Positions 11,890 to 26,806 are shown, counted from the stretch's first letter. The stretch: 39,779 nt of DNA from Arcicella sp. (GCA_014376355.1 JACMRQ010000358.1:1-39779), one strand, 5' to 3'. Made by a program: numbers and translations. Notes: generated by a model not told the origin, from the sequence alone.

Positions 11890-13719
11890 ATGTTTAAAAA
11901 ACTATTATTTCTTCTCATTCCTATTACAGGATTTTCCCAAACCCAAATCTCATTAAATGATTTGAGTGCCTTTAAAAATCCAAGTATTAATTGGACAATT
12001 GAAGGTGGCATTACGGGTAATTTTAACGGAGACCTGCTCAAGCCAATGCCGGGTATGGGCGTACTTTTGAGTACACTGAGAGGTCCAAAATACCAATCAA
12101 CCGATGATTTATATTCTGTTTTGGAACACGGAGATATCAAAATGTCATTGGATTTTATGATTCCAAATGGCTCAAATTCAGGACTTTACCTTCAAAGTCG
12201 TTACGAAATTCAGATTTATGATACTTGGTTGAAAAAACCGATAATAGATAACTTTTGTGGGGCTATTTATCATCGTTGGGATGAATCTCGTGGTAAAGGA
12301 AATGAAGCTTATGAAGGACATCCACCTCGCCAAAATGCAGTGAAAGCTCCGGGCCTTTGGAATCATTTGGAAGTAGATTTTAAGGCTCCAACCTTTGATG
12401 CTACGGGTAAAAAATTGACCAATGCTCGTTTTAATTCCGTTTATCTGAATGGTCTTTTAATCCATCAAAACGTTGAATTATTGGGTGTAACTCGTGGTGC
12501 TGTTTTGCAAGAAGTGGCAAAAGCTCCTTTCAGAATTCAAGGTGACCACGGGCAAGTGGCATTCAAAAATATTTTTTATGAAGTTTTTGAAAAAAGTGAC
12601 ATCAGTTTTACGCCCGTTACCTATGAAGTAACAGAAGGAGTAGTCAATAATTTTAAACAGACTAATCCTAAAATTGTTGCTTCTGGAACCCTTGCTCAAC
12701 CAACTCAAAAAATTATTAATGCCAAAAAGGATTTCTTAGCAAAATATCAAGGAAAATTTACGACAAAAGTCGCTGATAATTATACCTTTATTGGTCAGTG
12801 GGAAGCCGTAGGGGCAATGGTTGTAGATAATGACACGATTATTCAAGGTTGGCATCAACCTTCTGACTATATAAAAGGCAGAAAAAAATTAGCCGCTGGT
12901 GAACATACCTACACCATTCTTTACACCAAAGATTATAATTGGCGACCAAATTCTTTGGGTATTTTTATCCAGAAAGACCAATGGGAAAAACAAAGTATTA
13001 CTGAACGTACTTCTCTTTTGGATATGGTTCCTGTACCATTAATTGAAGTAAAAGCCGCTGACCAACCAGTCGTTCAACGTTCTTTTATTATGTATGGCAA
13101 TAAAAAAATATCGCATGGAATTAATGTAGGAATGCCTGATGGCTTGAGTTTTTCTTACGATTTGAATCAAGGAGGTTTTTTGCAATTGTGGAGAGGTAAA
13201 TTCTTAAATACTACCGATATGTGGCTTGAACGTGGTGAGCCTCAAACGTCTACTGCAATGGGTTTAACAATTAATGCAAATGATAAATTTCCGTTGGCAT
13301 ATTTGACTAATAATGAAACTGATTTTCCAGAAATTTTAACCAAAGAAGACTTAAAATTTAAAGGATATAAACTTGAAAAATATCTTAATAATGGTGGTTA
13401 TCCAAGTTTTATGTATGAATACAAGGGATTGAAAATAAAAGATTCAACTACGCCAATGGAAAAATCGGAAGGTTTAAATCGGCATTTAATTATTGATGGA
13501 GAGTTAAGTAATGCCAAACAATTATACGCCCTTATTGCCGAAGGAACTGATATTGCGGAAGTTGCCATCAATCGTTATGGTATTGATAATCAAACTTATT
13601 TTGTTGAAGTTGTCCCAACCGCAAACAACAAACCTTTCATTCGTGAAAGCAAGGGCAAAAAACAATTATTAATGCCTGTGACGGGTTTGAAAGAAATTTC
13701 TTATAACGTTATTTTTTAA
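11890..13719 (+). CDS. Secreted DUF1080 (3-keto-disaccharide hydrolase-type) protein with PA14-like domain
   Basis: A 609-residue exported protein: signal sequence MFKKLLFLLIPITGFSQ, then a DUF1080 beta-sandwich (about 20-230) with the characteristic NSGLYLQSRYEIQIYDTW and GLWNHLEVDF segments. A PA14-like region follows (about 285-365: GQWEAVGAMVVDNDTIIQGW, then GEHTYTILYTKDY), and then a C-terminal domain of about 240 residues that I do not recognise. DUF1080 members include enzymes acting on 3-keto-glycosides. The next gene encodes a periplasmic beta-propeller cytochrome c, so the pair may act on oxidised sugars. The substrate is not readable. Confidence 0.8.
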   Translation: MFKKLLFLLIPITGFSQTQISLNDLSAFKNPSINWTIEGGITGNFNGDLLKPMPGMGVLLSTLRGPKYQSTDDLYSVLEHGDIKMSLDFMIPNGSNSGLYLQSRYEIQIYDTWLKKPIIDNFCGAIYHRWDESRGKGNEAYEGHPPRQNAVKAPGLWNHLEVDFKAPTFDATGKKLTNARFNSVYLNGLLIHQNVELLGVTRGAVLQEVAKAPFRIQGDHGQVAFKNIFYEVFEKSDISFTPVTYEVTEGVVNNFKQTNPKIVASGTLAQPTQKIINAKKDFLAKYQGKFTTKVADNYTFIGQWEAVGAMVVDNDTIIQGWHQPSDYIKGRKKLAAGEHTYTILYTKDYNWRPNSLGIFIQKDQWEKQSITERTSLLDMVPVPLIEVKAADQPVVQRSFIMYGNKKISHGINVGMPDGLSFSYDLNQGGFLQLWRGKFLNTTDMWLERGEPQTSTAMGLTINANDKFPLAYLTNNETDFPEILTKEDLKFKGYKLEKYLNNGGYPSFMYEYKGLKIKDSTTPMEKSEGLNRHLIIDGELSNAKQLYALIAEGTDIAEVAINRYGIDNQTYFVEVVPTANNKPFIRESKGKKQLLMPVTGLKEISYNVIF

Positions 13720-13743
13720 CAATTAGATTTTAATAAATTGTCT

Positions 13744-13829
13744 ACCTGCTACATCCCCCTGCCCCCTTCAAAGGGGGACTTGCACTAATGGTAATCCCCC
13801 TTTGAAGGGGGCAGGGGGATGTAGCAGGT
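13744..13829. repeat. Perfect 35-bp inverted repeat (MITE/REP-like)
   Basis: Arms 13744-13778 and 13795-13829 are exact reverse complements around a 16-base loop. Each arm contains CCCCCTGCCCCCTTCAAAGG, far richer in G+C than the surroundings, and an internal small palindrome CCCCCTTCAAAGGGGG. It fills the gap between the DUF1080 and cytochrome genes and has no T-run typical of terminators. It looks like an inserted palindromic repeat. Confidence 0.9.
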
Positions 13830-13869
13830 TATATTTTAAAACATTAACTTTCATTAAGAATTTCAAAAA

Positions 13870-15765
13870 ATGAAAAACTATAAATATTTACTCATTACTA
13901 TCTTTGGTTTCTTAACACTGCAAACTTTTGCTCAACAGAAACCAAAACCTCTTACCGAGGAAGATTTTTACGAAATCAAAACCATCACAATCCCTGAAGG
14001 AATAAAGTTAGAAATTGGGGGTGTTGCACCCATGCCTGATGGGCGTGTGGCAGTATGTACTCGGAGAGGGGAAATTTGGATCATTGAAAATCCTTATATG
14101 CCTGATGGAACGCAACCAAGCTATACTTTATACGCCAGTGGTTTGCACGAATCCTTGGGTTTGGCATATCGTGAAGGCTCATTTTATTGTACGCAAAGAG
14201 GAGAATTGACCAAATTGACTGATACTGACGGCGATGATAAAGCCGATATTTATGAGTCATTTGCCAATTGGGATGTTTCAGGAAACTATCATGAATATTC
14301 TTACGGACCCGTTTTTGATAAAAATGGTGATATGTATTTGACTTTTAATGTGGCTTGGGTTGGATATGGCGAAGGTAAATTAGCGAAATGGAGAGGCTGG
14401 TTGGTTAAAATCAAGAAAGATGGAACGCTTGAACCTATTGCTACAGGTTTACGCTCGCCCGCAGGCTTTACGGTTAATTCAAACGGAGATGTTCTTTATG
14501 GTGAAAACCAAGGCGATTGGGTTGGTTCGGGACGGGTTACTCATTTAGAAAAGGGCGATTTTGCGGGAAATGCAGGCGGACTTTCATGGACAAAAGAGCC
14601 AGAATCTCCCCTTAAACCAACAACCGTAAAGGATATTCCAGATACGGGTGAACCTATGTTTGAAGCTGCCAAGAAAATGAAATCTTTGAAATTACCTGCC
14701 GTTTGGTTTCCTCATGCGTTGATGGGAATTTCAACCGCAGATGTGATTGAAGACCAAACGGGTGGTAAATTCGGACCATTTCAAGGACAATATTTTGTCT
14801 ATGACCAAGGACAATCTAAAGCGATGCGAATGACTTTGGAAAAAGTAAACGGCAAATATCAAGGAGCTTGCTATCCTTTCCGTGAGGGTTTTCAGTCGGG
14901 AACTTTGCGGGCAAGATGGGGGAATGACGGCTCAATGTTCGTTGGGCAAACTTCACGGGGTTGGGGGTCAACGGGTAAAGATTTATTTGGATTACAACGT
15001 TTGGTTTGGAATGGCAGAACACCTTTCGAAATGAAAAACGTCTCGGCTCGTCCAGATGGTTTCGAAATTGAATTCACGCAGCCAATTAGTCGCAAAAGTG
15101 CAGAAAATTTTGATAGTTATGAATTAAAAAGTTTCATTTATAAATATCAACATCAATATGGAAGTCCAATTATCAACCAAGAAGTTACGCCTTTACGGGG
15201 AATAATTGTATCAGAAGACCGTACGAAAGTGCGTTTGGTATTAGATAATATTCGTCAGGGATACATTCATCAAGTAATGGCTTCGGGCATTGTTAATGAT
15301 GAAGGACAATCTCTTTTGCATGATATAAGTTATTATACTTTGAATGAAATTCCAACGGGAGATTTGGCAAAAGTACCTCTGAGAACAATTACGCCTGCTT
15401 CCACATCTACGAAAGAAATAAAAGGCTCTTTGAAAAAAGAGAAAATTGGAGCAATAAAAGATATTATTGTGAATAGTAAGGAAGTAGCTGTGTTATTAAA
15501 AAAACACGCTTGTCTCGCCTGCCATGCCGAAGCTAATAAAGTAGTCGGACCTGCTTATACTGATATTGCTAAACGCAATTATACCAATGAGCAAATTTTG
15601 GAATTAGTCTATAGACCAAAACCTGAGAACTGGCCTGATTATGCAACTGAAATGGCCCCAATGTCGCACGTGCCAAAGACAGATGTCTTGAAAATTGCGG
15701 CTTGGATTAATACTTTGGGAAAGAAAGGCAAGGTTGATTTGAATAAAATTGAGAATAGGGACTAA
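13870..15765 (+). CDS. Secreted beta-propeller protein with C-terminal cytochrome c domain
   Basis: A 631-residue exported protein: signal sequence MKNYKYLLITIFGFLTLQTFAQ, then a beta-propeller (about 35-400) resembling sorbosone/glucose dehydrogenase-like and PVC-type heme proteins (MPDGRVAVCTRRGEIWII, ATGLRSPAGFTVNSNGDVLY). A linker of about 130 residues leads to a cytochrome c domain (about 535-625). The heme motif CLACH is near residue 548 and a candidate axial Met lies in MAPMSHVP. It probably passes electrons in the periplasm during sugar or alcohol oxidation. Its place next to the DUF1080 protein supports a sugar role. Substrate and partner are inference. Confidence 0.85.
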   Translation: MKNYKYLLITIFGFLTLQTFAQQKPKPLTEEDFYEIKTITIPEGIKLEIGGVAPMPDGRVAVCTRRGEIWIIENPYMPDGTQPSYTLYASGLHESLGLAYREGSFYCTQRGELTKLTDTDGDDKADIYESFANWDVSGNYHEYSYGPVFDKNGDMYLTFNVAWVGYGEGKLAKWRGWLVKIKKDGTLEPIATGLRSPAGFTVNSNGDVLYGENQGDWVGSGRVTHLEKGDFAGNAGGLSWTKEPESPLKPTTVKDIPDTGEPMFEAAKKMKSLKLPAVWFPHALMGISTADVIEDQTGGKFGPFQGQYFVYDQGQSKAMRMTLEKVNGKYQGACYPFREGFQSGTLRARWGNDGSMFVGQTSRGWGSTGKDLFGLQRLVWNGRTPFEMKNVSARPDGFEIEFTQPISRKSAENFDSYELKSFIYKYQHQYGSPIINQEVTPLRGIIVSEDRTKVRLVLDNIRQGYIHQVMASGIVNDEGQSLLHDISYYTLNEIPTGDLAKVPLRTITPASTSTKEIKGSLKKEKIGAIKDIIVNSKEVAVLLKKHACLACHAEANKVVGPAYTDIAKRNYTNEQILELVYRPKPENWPDYATEMAPMSHVPKTDVLKIAAWINTLGKKGKVDLNKIENRD

Positions 15766-18929: not shown

Positions 18930-19355
18930 TTATTTGTTTTTTCGCCAATATTGCCACGCTCCCGTTGACCATAATGACAAGAATATCAGGGCAGGTTGCA
19001 TAGGCAGTCTAAGCCAACGAGCAGTATCTGAATTCATACCAAAAGCATCTCTATGTTCAACTAATTGAGCAATATTTCCTGGGAAAATAACTACGAAGAA
19101 TACCGCTACTATCCATCCAACTTTTATGCGTTGTGAATAAAGGAAAAGTAAAGATAAACCAAGGATAATTTCGACGATTCCTGAAAGTAAAACTACGGTG
19201 TCGGCACTGATTGGAAACCACGGTGGAACTTGTGCTAAGAATTCTTTTCTCAAAAATGTCAAGTGACCTGTACCCGTAAAAGTAAGAAAACTACCTAATA
19301 AATATCGACCAATGTTTTGTGAAACAGATGTTGTATTGTTTTCAGAAATGTTCAT
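18930..19355 (-). CDS. DoxX family membrane protein
   Basis: A small (141-residue) four-helix DoxX-type protein. The ORF track starts at 19403, but ATG 19355 (MNISENNTTSVSQNIGRYLLG) is a better start because the longer version only adds a non-conserved leader. The conserved pattern GSFLTFTGTGHLTFLRKEF, the second helix VVLLSGIVEIILGLSLLFL and PGNIAQLVEH are visible. DoxX relatives are linked to quinone or thiosulfate metabolism and redox-linked membrane complexes. Here it follows a predicted metal-binding membrane protein and an unknown polytopic protein on the same strand, suggesting a shared role. Confidence 0.85.
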   Translation of the reverse strand: MNISENNTTSVSQNIGRYLLGSFLTFTGTGHLTFLRKEFLAQVPPWFPISADTVVLLSGIVEIILGLSLLFLYSQRIKVGWIVAVFFVVIFPGNIAQLVEHRDAFGMNSDTARWLRLPMQPALIFLSLWSTGAWQYWRKNK

Positions 19356-19435
19356 GTTGTTTAGGTTTGGCGTGAAAAAAATAAGGTAATTTATTTCTAA
19401 CAAATTGACGTTTTTTTGAGTTTTCCGTATTGTTC

Positions 19436-21034
19436 CTAAATCACCACTGCATCAAAAACCCCCGTTAAAATCTTTTCATTGCGCTTAATCTGTAACCAAA
19501 TTCTGTAATTTCCTGCCGTTGGAAAAACGTATGGAAATTTTACACTTCCACCGTGGTGTTCTTGAGTGTTGTGGTTCATGTTGGGCATCAAGAATTGGTT
19601 TCTTTGGGTTTCGGACATTGTTTGAATTTTGGTTAAAACCTTGTCGATACTATCTTTAAAAACCTTTGGCGTTGCAATAAATGGCTCAACCGAAGTTTCT
19701 TCAATTCGCTTTTGCATCACGCCCACGGACGTACTCGAAACCGTGCCAGTTGGATGTAAATGTATGTAAACCGAGCCGTCCGTTTTTACGATTGCGGCGT
19801 GTCCCATCATGCCCAAATACGGTTGCAAAATAGCCTCTTTCCCATCTGGAGAAACCACCGAAAACTTCAAGTCATATACTTGTCCTGCCATCAAGGATTT
19901 ATTGGGTTTTTCTTCCCAAACAATGCTTGAACCATCTTGGAGTTTGGTTTTTATACCTGGCGCTCCACAAATTGTAATTATTTCGTCCAATGAATTTGCT
20001 TTTTTTTCGTTCAAAGCATTTGTAATAGCATAAGTGTCATCAGGGTCTTGAACTTTAGTATTTTTAACGGCATTTTTTATTTCAATAGTATCCGTTAGTG
20101 TGTATTGAAAACCGCCAATATATCGCATAATATCGGCATACAATAAATATTTTCCTGCTGGTAAATTGGGTAAAGTTGCCTCAAAATTAAGTGTATCTAA
20201 TCTTACGGGATGCAGATGGGCAAACGCATCCATGGTTCCTTGTCGTACTAAAAATAGGTGCATCAATTTGCCGTGATCGGGTATTAGGTAGCTTAGTTTA
20301 CGATTATAAACCGAGTTACTATCAATCGTTAATTTTAAAACTGTTTGATTATTTTCTTCTACAATTTTGGTATTGGCAATGTAAGGTTTGTACATATCTT
20401 TGAGATAGTCTTTTGTGAGTCCACCCCACCAATTATTGCCAATAAATAATAATAGTCCACAAAAACTTGCTCCCACAAGTGAACCCATTATCCTTTTACG
20501 AGCAGTTTTAGGCGTTGCTTTTTCTCCTATGGGCTGCAAACTATCGCTAACACTTGCTCCAAAAATAGTCGTGAGAACACCAATCAGAAACACGCTTAAA
20601 GCTGCCAGAATCCAGCCCAAACCTACTGGCATCGAACGCTTTGCTGTAGAAACTGCCGCTACTGGAACAATCATTTTTGCGGCACCTCTTTTACCCGAAA
20701 CTTCCACCTCCACACTGGCTGGGGTGGAAGTCATAAACCATATTAAGCCTTCAAATTGACCGTTTTTCCCAGCAATCGGTAAGGCTTCATCCGATACGGG
20801 GGAGCCTTCATCACCATACCAAAAGTAAATGGGTTTGATTCTAATATGCTCAATATCACCACCATCCGTGAAGATGGTAACTTTTGCAGTACCTGGAATA
20901 ACGTCAGGTGGTTGTACATAAACCTGCAAGGCGTATTTGCCAGCTTTTCCTTCATAAACTACGCCAGGACTACCCACGTGGGCGTTGGTAAAAGATGCGT
21001 TTAGAATTAAAAACATTATGATGAAATTTTTCAA
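19436..21034 (-). CDS. Exported membrane-anchored protein with N-terminal histidine and HLHP motifs (putative metal-binding)
   Basis: A 532-residue protein I cannot assign to a named family. The signal peptide MKNFIIMFLILNASFTNA is predicted to be cut before His19, leaving an N-terminal histidine (HVGSPGVVYEG), as in CopC, YcnI and other copper 'histidine-brace' proteins; His63 in GGDIEHIRIKP could be a second ligand. Two helices (about 137-160 and 184-200) anchor it. The C-terminal 330 residues contain two periplasmic domains with similar motifs, HGKLMHLFLV...FAHLHPV and MMGHAAIV...YIHLHPTG, and a late His cluster (MNHNTQEHHGG). Copper binding is inference; it may also be a FixH- or YtkA-like chaperone. 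Confidence 0.7.
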   Translation of the reverse strand: MKNFIIMFLILNASFTNAHVGSPGVVYEGKAGKYALQVYVQPPDVIPGTAKVTIFTDGGDIEHIRIKPIYFWYGDEGSPVSDEALPIAGKNGQFEGLIWFMTSTPASVEVEVSGKRGAAKMIVPVAAVSTAKRSMPVGLGWILAALSVFLIGVLTTIFGASVSDSLQPIGEKATPKTARKRIMGSLVGASFCGLLLFIGNNWWGGLTKDYLKDMYKPYIANTKIVEENNQTVLKLTIDSNSVYNRKLSYLIPDHGKLMHLFLVRQGTMDAFAHLHPVRLDTLNFEATLPNLPAGKYLLYADIMRYIGGFQYTLTDTIEIKNAVKNTKVQDPDDTYAITNALNEKKANSLDEIITICGAPGIKTKLQDGSSIVWEEKPNKSLMAGQVYDLKFSVVSPDGKEAILQPYLGMMGHAAIVKTDGSVYIHLHPTGTVSSTSVGVMQKRIEETSVEPFIATPKVFKDSIDKVLTKIQTMSETQRNQFLMPNMNHNTQEHHGGSVKFPYVFPTAGNYRIWLQIKRNEKILTGVFDAVVI

Positions 21035-21097
21035 AGGAAGATGATTTAGAAGGGTAAATATTTTATGATGAACATTTTACAGTAAAATAATTTTCCT

Positions 21098-22327
21098 TTA
21101 TCGTTGCACTTTTTTCATCCAATTACCCCAAACTAAACCAATTCGAGCGGAGATGAAACCTAATGTGATGGATATGAAACTGGCAATTACCCATTTTTGG
21201 AATCCTTGTGTGGTATATCTATCTAAATATTTATACCGCCATTCAGTGTCAGGATTATTGTTATAACTCCAAGTATCTGACTGAAAAAACCAGTTGCGTG
21301 CCAATTCAGATTCTTTCAAAAAAGAACCCATGGGATATTGAATTATTAAAAAAGTTATGAAAAATCCAAACCCTAAAATCAAGGCAAGAATCCAATCATT
21401 TTTTTGAGAAAATTTATCCCGTAAAATATCCGTAATTAAAGCAGGAAATACCAACAACAAAGGAAATGCTGTCGTCTGAAAAAACGTGATATGATTGGAA
21501 ACGGGAGCCAAAAGTGGTTCAGCAGGAAACTGTCTAATCGTTCCGTTTATCGCAATCATCATGACCATATAAATCAAAGCAATAATCGTTGTTCCCCATT
21601 TGATATTGCTTGCCCGTGCGAAGGCAATCATAAATAAAGGAAATGCTCCGCAACCAATTTCGTAGAAAAAATCGTTGTGCATATTCCATCTACCCATGAA
21701 TTCGGTAAGGAAAGTATTGACGGTTAATAATACTAAACCCGCTGTAAACATGAAGATGTTACGCAGCCTATTCTCACGATTAATATTTTGTATATCAGAT
21801 AAATACGCTATTTTTTCTTTACGATTTAATACCGCTAAAACTGAAATCATCGCCCCAATTTGAATGGAAATTAATCCTAATGCCAAGATTGTATGAGGAG
21901 GAGAGAAAATCTTTACGTCTAATCCGTAAGTTGCGTGCCACCAATCGTCGAAAGGAGCAGAAGTTGCCGCTCCAAAGCCACCCCAAATGCAGAACATTCC
22001 TCCCAAAGAACTATAAAATATGCCCCAGAAATTCACCATTTTACCTTTCTCTTGGGTTGTTCCCCAGAATGATGTTTTCAAAACTTGATAACCCGAAATA
22101 ATGCCCGCCAAAGCTGCACCCAAATAAATGGCATTGTGAGGGGCAGAAAAAAGACCATCTCGCCCGATACTCATGTGCCAAGCAATATCCCAAAGTACAC
22201 CAATAATTACCAATGCAGAGCATATCGCCACTACATAGATTTGCGTTGGAATTCCTAACAAAAAACTTTTAGTTGGATTGTCGGTTTGTTTTAAGGAAAG
22301 ATTCGGAAGAAGAGAAGTTATTGCCAT
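21098..22327 (-). CDS. Polytopic membrane protein with duplicated DxxWH...FSxPH motif, function unknown
   Basis: A 409-residue protein with about ten hydrophobic helices and no signal peptide. A striking motif occurs twice: residues 47-64 (WDIAWHMSIGRD...FSAPH) and 127-145 (DDWWHATYGLDV...FSPPH), consensus D-x2-WH-x3-G-x-D-x(2-3)-FS-x-PH. A possible third His site is NMHNDF (about 217) with SNHITFF (about 279). Repeated Asp/His at the membrane surface suggests a metal or heme site or proton path, but no family is recognised. It is the first gene of the minus-strand run and is followed after 63 bases by the N-terminal-His protein. Confidence 0.75.
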   Translation of the reverse strand: MAITSLLPNLSLKQTDNPTKSFLLGIPTQIYVVAICSALVIIGVLWDIAWHMSIGRDGLFSAPHNAIYLGAALAGIISGYQVLKTSFWGTTQEKGKMVNFWGIFYSSLGGMFCIWGGFGAATSAPFDDWWHATYGLDVKIFSPPHTILALGLISIQIGAMISVLAVLNRKEKIAYLSDIQNINRENRLRNIFMFTAGLVLLTVNTFLTEFMGRWNMHNDFFYEIGCGAFPLFMIAFARASNIKWGTTIIALIYMVMMIAINGTIRQFPAEPLLAPVSNHITFFQTTAFPLLLVFPALITDILRDKFSQKNDWILALILGFGFFITFLIIQYPMGSFLKESELARNWFFQSDTWSYNNNPDTEWRYKYLDRYTTQGFQKWVIASFISITLGFISARIGLVWGNWMKKVQR

Positions 22328-26245: not shown

Positions 26246-26806
26246 TCAAAGCCTTGGAATTAACATGGGTACATTTTTCTGATATTCTTCATACTTTTTT
26301 CCGAATACCTCTACTAATTTCTTCTCCTCAAAATAAATTCCAATTCTGATGTAAGTGCTAAGAAATAAGGCAGTTGTTAGATAGGATTCAGTGGTGAAAA
26401 AGCCAAAACTTCCCCAAATAAATAAGAGAATTCCTACGTATAATGGATGCCTTACATACTCCGATAATCCTTCGGTCGTTAATTCAGGCTGTTTTTTAGA
26501 CTGAAAATCTGTTCCAATAAATTCCTTCATATCATAATTTTTCAAGGAAAGATACACGACAAATATTCCAGAAAACATCATAAGTCCTCCCAACAACTGA
26601 TTGAAAAATGAATCAGGCATTAGTTTTTTTGAATCCATGAAAATCTGAAAATAGACAATGGAAATCAATAAAATAATCGCTATTAGATTATAAATCAGAC
26701 GATAATATTTTATTGGAAATGCTTTTTTGATAGTATCAGATGCCAAGACCGAATGAATAATTCCAAAGCCAATCCAAAGCAGTGCTAAAATAATTTCGTT
26801 TTTCAT
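26246..26806 (-). CDS. Isoprenylcysteine methyltransferase-like (ICMT/NnrU-type) integral membrane protein
   Basis: A 186-residue protein with about five helices. The C-terminal signature of the phospholipid/isoprenylcysteine methyltransferase superfamily is clear: YVRHPLYVGILLFIWG, then FEEKKLVEVFGKKYEEYQKNVPMLIP, in which the RHP and EE residues contact SAM in the family. The acceptor is unknown. It begins one base after the stop of the ABC permease gene, so the two are translationally coupled or at least co-transcribed. Confidence 0.85.
   Translation of the reverse strand: MKNEIILALLWIGFGIIHSVLASDTIKKAFPIKYYRLIYNLIAIILLISIVYFQIFMDSKKLMPDSFFNQLLGGLMMFSGIFVVYLSLKNYDMKEFIGTDFQSKKQPELTTEGLSEYVRHPLYVGILLFIWGSFGFFTTESYLTTALFLSTYIRIGIYFEEKKLVEVFGKKYEEYQKNVPMLIPRL

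Follow-up and report, generated by a model that had tools for sequence, protein, structure and literature searches.

Copper membrane monooxygenases (CuMMOs) start the aerobic oxidation of methane, ammonia and short alkanes, and their active copper site has been disputed for decades. In particulate methane monooxygenase (pMMO) the ligands are D156, H160 and H173 for the CuC site, N227, H231 and H245 for CuD, and H33 (with its amino group), H137 and H139 for CuB (PMC12576850). Quantum-mechanical and product-analogue studies cited in that paper favor CuD as the place of catalysis. The hosts covered by the CuMMO papers that we found are Proteobacteria, Verrucomicrobia, Actinobacteria, NC10, Thaumarchaeota, Binatota, Thermoplasmatota and an order of the Syntropharchaeia. 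In one sponge-genome survey, which covered Gemmatimonadota and Bacteroidota too, the only bacteria with a CuMMO were UBP10 and an unidentified group (PMC8163846). Here, we analyze a stretch of 39,779 nucleotides (the window, always meant in its full length) from a freshwater bacterium of the Bacteroidota, a relative of Arcicella. It carries three consecutive genes on the minus strand, which code for a polytopic membrane protein (POLY), an exported protein (HIS) and a DoxX/MauE-like protein. An earlier note, made from the sequence alone, had described this row of same-strand genes correctly and had proposed that it encodes an uncharacterised metal system. We argue that POLY and HIS are a deep two-subunit relative of the CuMMOs, most likely an oxygenase, and give this reading a probability of about 0.52.

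Relationship of POLY to PmoC

Neither POLY nor HIS has an assignment in Pfam or NCBIfam, and searches with the POLY sequence (Pfam, NCBIfam, PDB) gave nothing above noise. The repeated His/Asp motifs that had been noticed in the polytopic protein are indeed there, DIAWHMSIGRDGLFSAPH and DDWWHATYGLDVKIFSPPH; their likeness to the CuC and CuD motifs of PmoC/AmoC had been overlooked. Counted from the first Asp, the ligands of the first site lie at +4 and +17 and those of the second at +4 and +18, the same offsets as in PmoC. In an alignment of 99 POLY sequences with a median pairwise identity of 43%, the CuC spacing Asp-x3-His-x12-His is kept by D47/H51/H64 in every member, as are the spacing and both histidines of the CuD-like site, where the Asn of PmoC is Asp in all 99. 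The six CuC/CuD positions are thus found in the same order and with the same spacing, and apart from this one Asn to Asp exchange they are invariant in 99/99 POLY and 62/62 PmoC sequences. The residues around the ligands agree as well: POLY and PmoC share Arg and Asp at +9 and +10 of the CuC site and Trp at +2, an acidic residue at +10 and Pro at +16 of the CuD site, which correspond in PmoC to R165, D166, W229, E237 (Asp in POLY) and P243. Invariant throughout the POLY alignment are D47, H51, R56, D57, H64, D127, W129, H131, D137 and H145, and the four histidines among them are the only invariant ones. With their exact PmoC/AmoC spacing, the two motifs point to the copper membrane monooxygenases. 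Among 1771 open frames of the fetched loci, which are no random sample, the double motif occurred in POLY and PmoC/AmoC only.

Profile comparison leads in the same direction. The PmoC set was started from a PmoC fragment, which was checked against solved chains and then used to fetch viral PmoC genes; it was widened with pmoCAB operons from plasmids, and Pfam confirmed the fetched subunits as genuine. With 43 POLY sequences, hhalign gave a score of 44.5, compared to a mean of 16.3 (standard deviation 3.0, maximum 27.8) for 150 column shuffles. With all 99 the score rose to 49.2 (probability 85%, P 6e-6; 60 shuffles 15.5 ± 2.8, maximum 22.9), and both sites came into register unguided. At the level of sequence, homology of POLY to PmoC is strongly supported.

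The AlphaFold2 (AF2) model of POLY (pLDDT 90.2, pTM 0.88) has ten main membrane helices, compared to five helices modelled in PmoC. D47 and H51 are predicted to end helix 1 and H64 to start helix 2; likewise D127 and H131 end helix 3 and H145 starts helix 4. Since the positively charged loops are on the opposite side of the model, both sites probably face the periplasm, the side of HIS. A Foldseek search of the model against 350,542 PDB chains returned as its first two matches AmoA (9cl6_B) and PmoA (9cl1_Ca), both with a probability of 0.99, while the third-ranked chain had 0.18. A comparison of the POLY model with viral models by Foldseek gave no match. It is hardly credible that POLY is unrelated to PmoC and arrived at the six-residue match by chance evolution. 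Beyond the motifs the two proteins have very low identity and the hidden Markov model libraries give nothing, as such a convergence would have it, but the profile score lies far beyond both column-shuffled and reversed controls, and an independent search by structure brings up subunits of that very enzyme complex.

The exported partner HIS

In the predicted fold of HIS (pLDDT 85.9), a first beta domain is followed by two long helices and then by two more beta domains. This is the domain order of PmoB (periplasmic beta domain, two transmembrane helices, periplasmic beta domain) with an extra domain added. The signal peptide ends with TNA, followed by HVGS, so that H19 is the predicted first residue of the mature protein. 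In 107/107 relatives H19 is preceded by A, G or S, which fits the expectation for signal peptidase I. The start codon of HIS is TTG in the window and, at the corresponding position, ATG in a close relative. Across the 107 sequences H19, H254, H259, H273 and H275 are invariant, and H412, H425 and H427 are kept at 98-99%; Y34 and M101 of the N-terminal domain, likewise invariant, may be ligands too. Thus, the exported protein with a mature N-terminal histidine and the two HLHP motifs of the earlier note are both confirmed by the family, the motifs being essentially invariant. Two other details of that note did not hold: the His63 thought to lie adjacent to His19 is a histidine in only 8/107 relatives, and we reject it as a ligand or partner of H19; the His cluster near 488-494 is variable across the same sequences and is likewise rejected.

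HIS resembles PmoB/AmoB (PF04744) in its mature N-terminal His, its beta-TM-TM-beta layout (TM, transmembrane helix) and its PmoC-like partner. It differs by the extra C-terminal beta domain with the HLHP sites and by an N-terminal domain free of HxH pairs, which in HIS sit in the C-terminal domains. Homology of HIS to PmoB is unproven. A profile match between the two is not claimed, the 27 aligned columns being at different places in the two domains.

Other likenesses of HIS are to copper proteins. Its N-terminal domain matches the copper resistance protein CrdA in Foldseek (TMt 0.63, probability 1.00), and the same chain is the best profile match in the PDB sequence search, where CrdA is the only weak hit (E 0.28). 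The likeness to YtkA/CopC is weak, with CopC (PF04234) at E 0.11 in 2/51 HIS members. Unlike the CrdA/CopC/YtkA-like copper proteins HIS is membrane anchored and three-domained, and CrdA is without any His (PMC9182242). CopC and YcnI, named earlier as parallels, are hence not the best fit for the whole. An assignment to the CopC/CopD copper import family was rejected on the CopC value just given and the lack of a CopD match for POLY.

The C-terminal part of HIS has free-standing relatives. GLO7428_RS24685, on the Gloeocapsa plasmid pGLO7428.02, is 26% identical over HIS 254-527 and has H.HP motifs at both HLHP places; it lacks the N-terminal domain and the membrane helices and lies in a metal-resistance cluster. 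Its gene immediately precedes genes for an HMA-domain protein, a heavy-metal P-type ATPase and a cupredoxin (L242:6839-11427). A second double-HLHP relative was found in Planococcus near DUF305 and DUF1541 genes. It is these neighbors that tie the module to copper, and the double-HLHP part is a copper-associated domain that has no name and that no Pfam model matches above its cut-off.

These features also bear on the nature of the metal. A PmoC-like scaffold with another metal, for example iron or zinc, can be considered, because the invariant Asn to Asp exchange (99/99) turns both POLY sites into 2-His-1-carboxylate triads of the type that non-heme iron enzymes usually have. Zinc was furthermore present in the CuC site of PmoC in the first crystal structures (PMC12576850). 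Nevertheless, the mature N-terminal His of HIS and its copper-associated C-terminal module are typical of copper proteins, and we consider a different metal improbable.

The gene pair and its possible function

The conserved module is POLY plus HIS, two genes and not a trio. After removal of six evident duplicates, 46/49 of the protein-search loci that include the upstream side have POLY immediately before HIS in the same orientation; in the three exceptions (L031, L032, L051) POLY is found elsewhere in the genome. This adjacency exceeds chance. In a sample of 249 Gemmatimonadota genomes POLY occurs in 65, all of which (65/65) have HIS, while HIS without POLY was seen in two further genomes, in one as a mere fragment. 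About a quarter of these genomes thus carry the pair, and at their loci the distance from the POLY stop to the mature-His codon of HIS is typically 50-75 bases. In the Eisenbacteria POLY was detected in 2/47 genomes, and a strong match was obtained in 5/396 evenly sampled Bacteroidota genomes, that of the window included; the module is present in these three phyla. A plasmid search found no POLY on plasmids. Across the fetched loci no conserved neighbor other than the partner gene was found. The DoxX-like gene is real, but apart from the window just a single same-genus genome has it next to the pair, and it is a genus-level bystander. Its family match is weak as well (Pfam MauE E=4.6e-4, DoxX E=0.07, both below cut-off). 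For the two-gene core, with its first residue His conserved in 107/107 and its genes regularly adjoining, the idea of the earlier note survives, and an uncharacterised metal system, probably for copper, is supported.

According to our reading, POLY and HIS would form a two-subunit copper complex of the inner membrane and be a member of the superfamily that includes particulate methane and ammonia monooxygenase. POLY would be the equivalent of PmoC, its extra helices possibly replacing PmoA, and would hold two metal sites at the periplasmic side, D47/H51/H64 (CuC-like) and D127/H131/H145 (CuD-like). HIS, PmoB-like by layout, would be a periplasmic copper protein whose free N-terminal histidine and two HLHP sites may bind copper and supply or stabilise the sites in POLY. 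There, O2 might be activated and a small non-polar or amine substrate oxidised with electrons from the quinone pool. We regard O2-dependent oxidation of a small substrate as most likely because CuD is favored as the catalytic site (PMC12576850), and see about even odds for a monooxygenase activity of the pair.

Several observations weigh against this assignment. The Foldseek E values for AmoA and PmoA (0.14-0.19) are insignificant by themselves, PmoC/AmoC chains rank only 10th and 36th in the same search (probability 0.05-0.11), and the profile similarity of POLY to PmoA (PF02461) is weak (24.5 versus 15.9 +/- 2.3). That POLY combines a C-like and an A-like subunit is for these reasons a hint from the model. 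The AmoC, AMO and Monooxygenase_B family models match neither POLY nor HIS. For HIS, the comparison with the PmoB profile is suggestive at best (score 29.7 versus 17.0 +/- 2.5, 27 columns, P 0.009), PmoB is outside the best 50 Foldseek matches, a list swamped by immunoglobulin-like domains, and H137 and H139 of the CuB site are without an invariant counterpart in the N-terminal domain (107 sequences). At the fetched loci a third subunit is absent beside the pair and no electron-donor or dehydrogenase neighbor is conserved. Finally, pyrroloquinoline quinone (PQQ) dehydrogenases are found both in relatives that carry the pair and in relatives that do not.

The strongest competing explanation is a copper-handling complex, in which HIS captures periplasmic copper by its N-terminal His and HLHP sites and passes it to the two intramembrane sites of POLY, for import or for the loading of respiratory oxidases, much as is supposed for CopC/CopD or YcnJ. 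The PmoC-like sites would then be reused for transport or storage. The CrdA-like N-terminal domain of HIS with its weak YtkA/CopC likeness would fit this role, as would the occurrence of the C-terminal module alone in a metal-resistance cluster, the lack of conserved catabolic or electron-transfer genes beside the pair and, at a single Gemmatimonadota locus (L054), a SURF1 gene next after it. However, POLY agrees with PmoC at all metal-site positions and at neighboring residues too, it has no match to CopD in Pfam, no copper operon was seen to contain the pair, and its patchy carriers are unlike those of a general copper supply. We hold copper handling to be a serious explanation, though a less likely one than the oxygenase.

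To return to the monooxygenase relationship, there is a precedent for a very divergent CuMMO outside the known hosts in the Angelarchaeales of the Thermoplasmatota (PMC9038741). That enzyme keeps the A, B and C subunits and the three-His site of PmoB, which the POLY-HIS pair does not; conversely it is without the D site (PMC9038741), whose spacing is kept in POLY. Compared to PmoC/AmoC (PF04896), POLY is alike in both motifs, their order, spacing and flanking residues and has significant profile similarity, but it escapes the family model, carries Asp for the CuD Asn and is without pmoA or pmoB neighbors. A search of the window's own genome with PF04896 gave no match, and PF02461 had no match in 59 relatives that could indicate a separate PmoA gene, a search that gave none in control genomes either. 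Only two genes are present at the loci, compared to the three-gene operon of CuMMOs with its separate PmoA. Because the CuB His pair and a separate PmoA were looked for and not found, we do not count the pair among the CuMMOs in the strict sense and prefer to call it a CuMMO-like, PmoC-homologous two-gene system. In the open-licence literature on CuMMO in Bacteroidota or Gemmatimonadota and on PmoC- or AmoC-like proteins, the POLY-HIS family is not described. The data suggest an overlooked branch of the methane- and ammonia-oxidising copper enzymes in phyla for which we found no report. Standard marker tools would miss it, since the family models named above do not match. Tentatively, and with somewhat less confidence, one may imagine a further deep CuMMO lineage of only two subunits, in which a single polypeptide combines the C- and A-type membrane parts and there are two Asp-His-His sites; it would operate in common heterotrophs of the Bacteroidota and Gemmatimonadota and be missed by amoA/pmoA surveys. 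A distant two-subunit relative that has the CuC and CuD sites but neither the CuB His pair nor a separate PmoA would be a natural experiment on what is essential in these enzymes. Named strains among the carriers (Emticicia, Siphonobacter, Spirosoma) make the function directly testable.

Feature coordinates and neighboring genes

Table 1. Positions of the three genes and of candidate sites in POLY and HIS, counted from the first letter of the window
Feature	Position	Strand	Basis
POLY, 409 amino acids, PmoC/AmoC-like membrane subunit, ten main membrane helices	21098-22327	-	AF2, hhalign, Foldseek
CuC-like site, D47/H51/H64 with R56, D57	22136-22189	-	D-x3-H-x12-H; invariant in 99/99 POLY
CuD-like site, D127/H131/H145 with D137, P143	21893-21949	-	D-x3-H-x13-H; Asp for Asn in 99/99
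HIS, 532 amino acids, exported: signal peptide, beta domain, two membrane helices, two beta domains	19436-21034	-	AF2, co-occurrence with POLY
H19, predicted mature N-terminal histidine	20978-20980	-	107/107 relatives
HIS transmembrane helix 1, residues 137-166	20537-20626	-	AF2 secondary structure
HIS transmembrane helix 2, residues 175-212	20399-20512	-	AF2 secondary structure
HIS motif DHGKLMH, D253-H259	20258-20278	-	H254, H259 in 107/107
HIS first HLHP, 273-276	20207-20218	-	H273, H275 in 107/107
HIS H412, ahead of second HLHP	19799-19801	-	106/107
HIS second HLHP, 425-428	19751-19762	-	H425, H427 in 105/107
DoxX/MauE-like gene, neighbor outside the conserved module	18930-19403	-	beside the pair only in L005/L024 (window and one same-genus genome)

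The likely start of the DoxX-like gene is the ATG near 19355. A genome of the same family has a tandem arrangement POLY-POLY-HIS (L163:6061-10521), in which both POLY copies keep all six ligands. In two Siphonobacter loci (L028:2373-4514, L030:2474-4597) a PQQ alcohol dehydrogenase with a cytochrome c domain lies directly upstream of the pair. A role in a subsequent pathway step was considered and set aside; the link is uncertain, since these dehydrogenases are widespread in the family, in genomes that lack the pair as in those that have it. The SURF1 gene of L054 (7410-8222), which belongs to cytochrome oxidase assembly, overlaps the end of HIS. Elsewhere in the window, 11890-15765 encodes a 3-keto-disaccharide hydrolase-like protein followed by a protein weakly similar to PVC-type haem-binding CxxCH proteins. 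At 26246-26806 there is a PEMT/NnrU-like membrane methyltransferase with weak similarity to the methanethiol S-methyltransferase MddA (68 bits versus a 270-bit cut-off).

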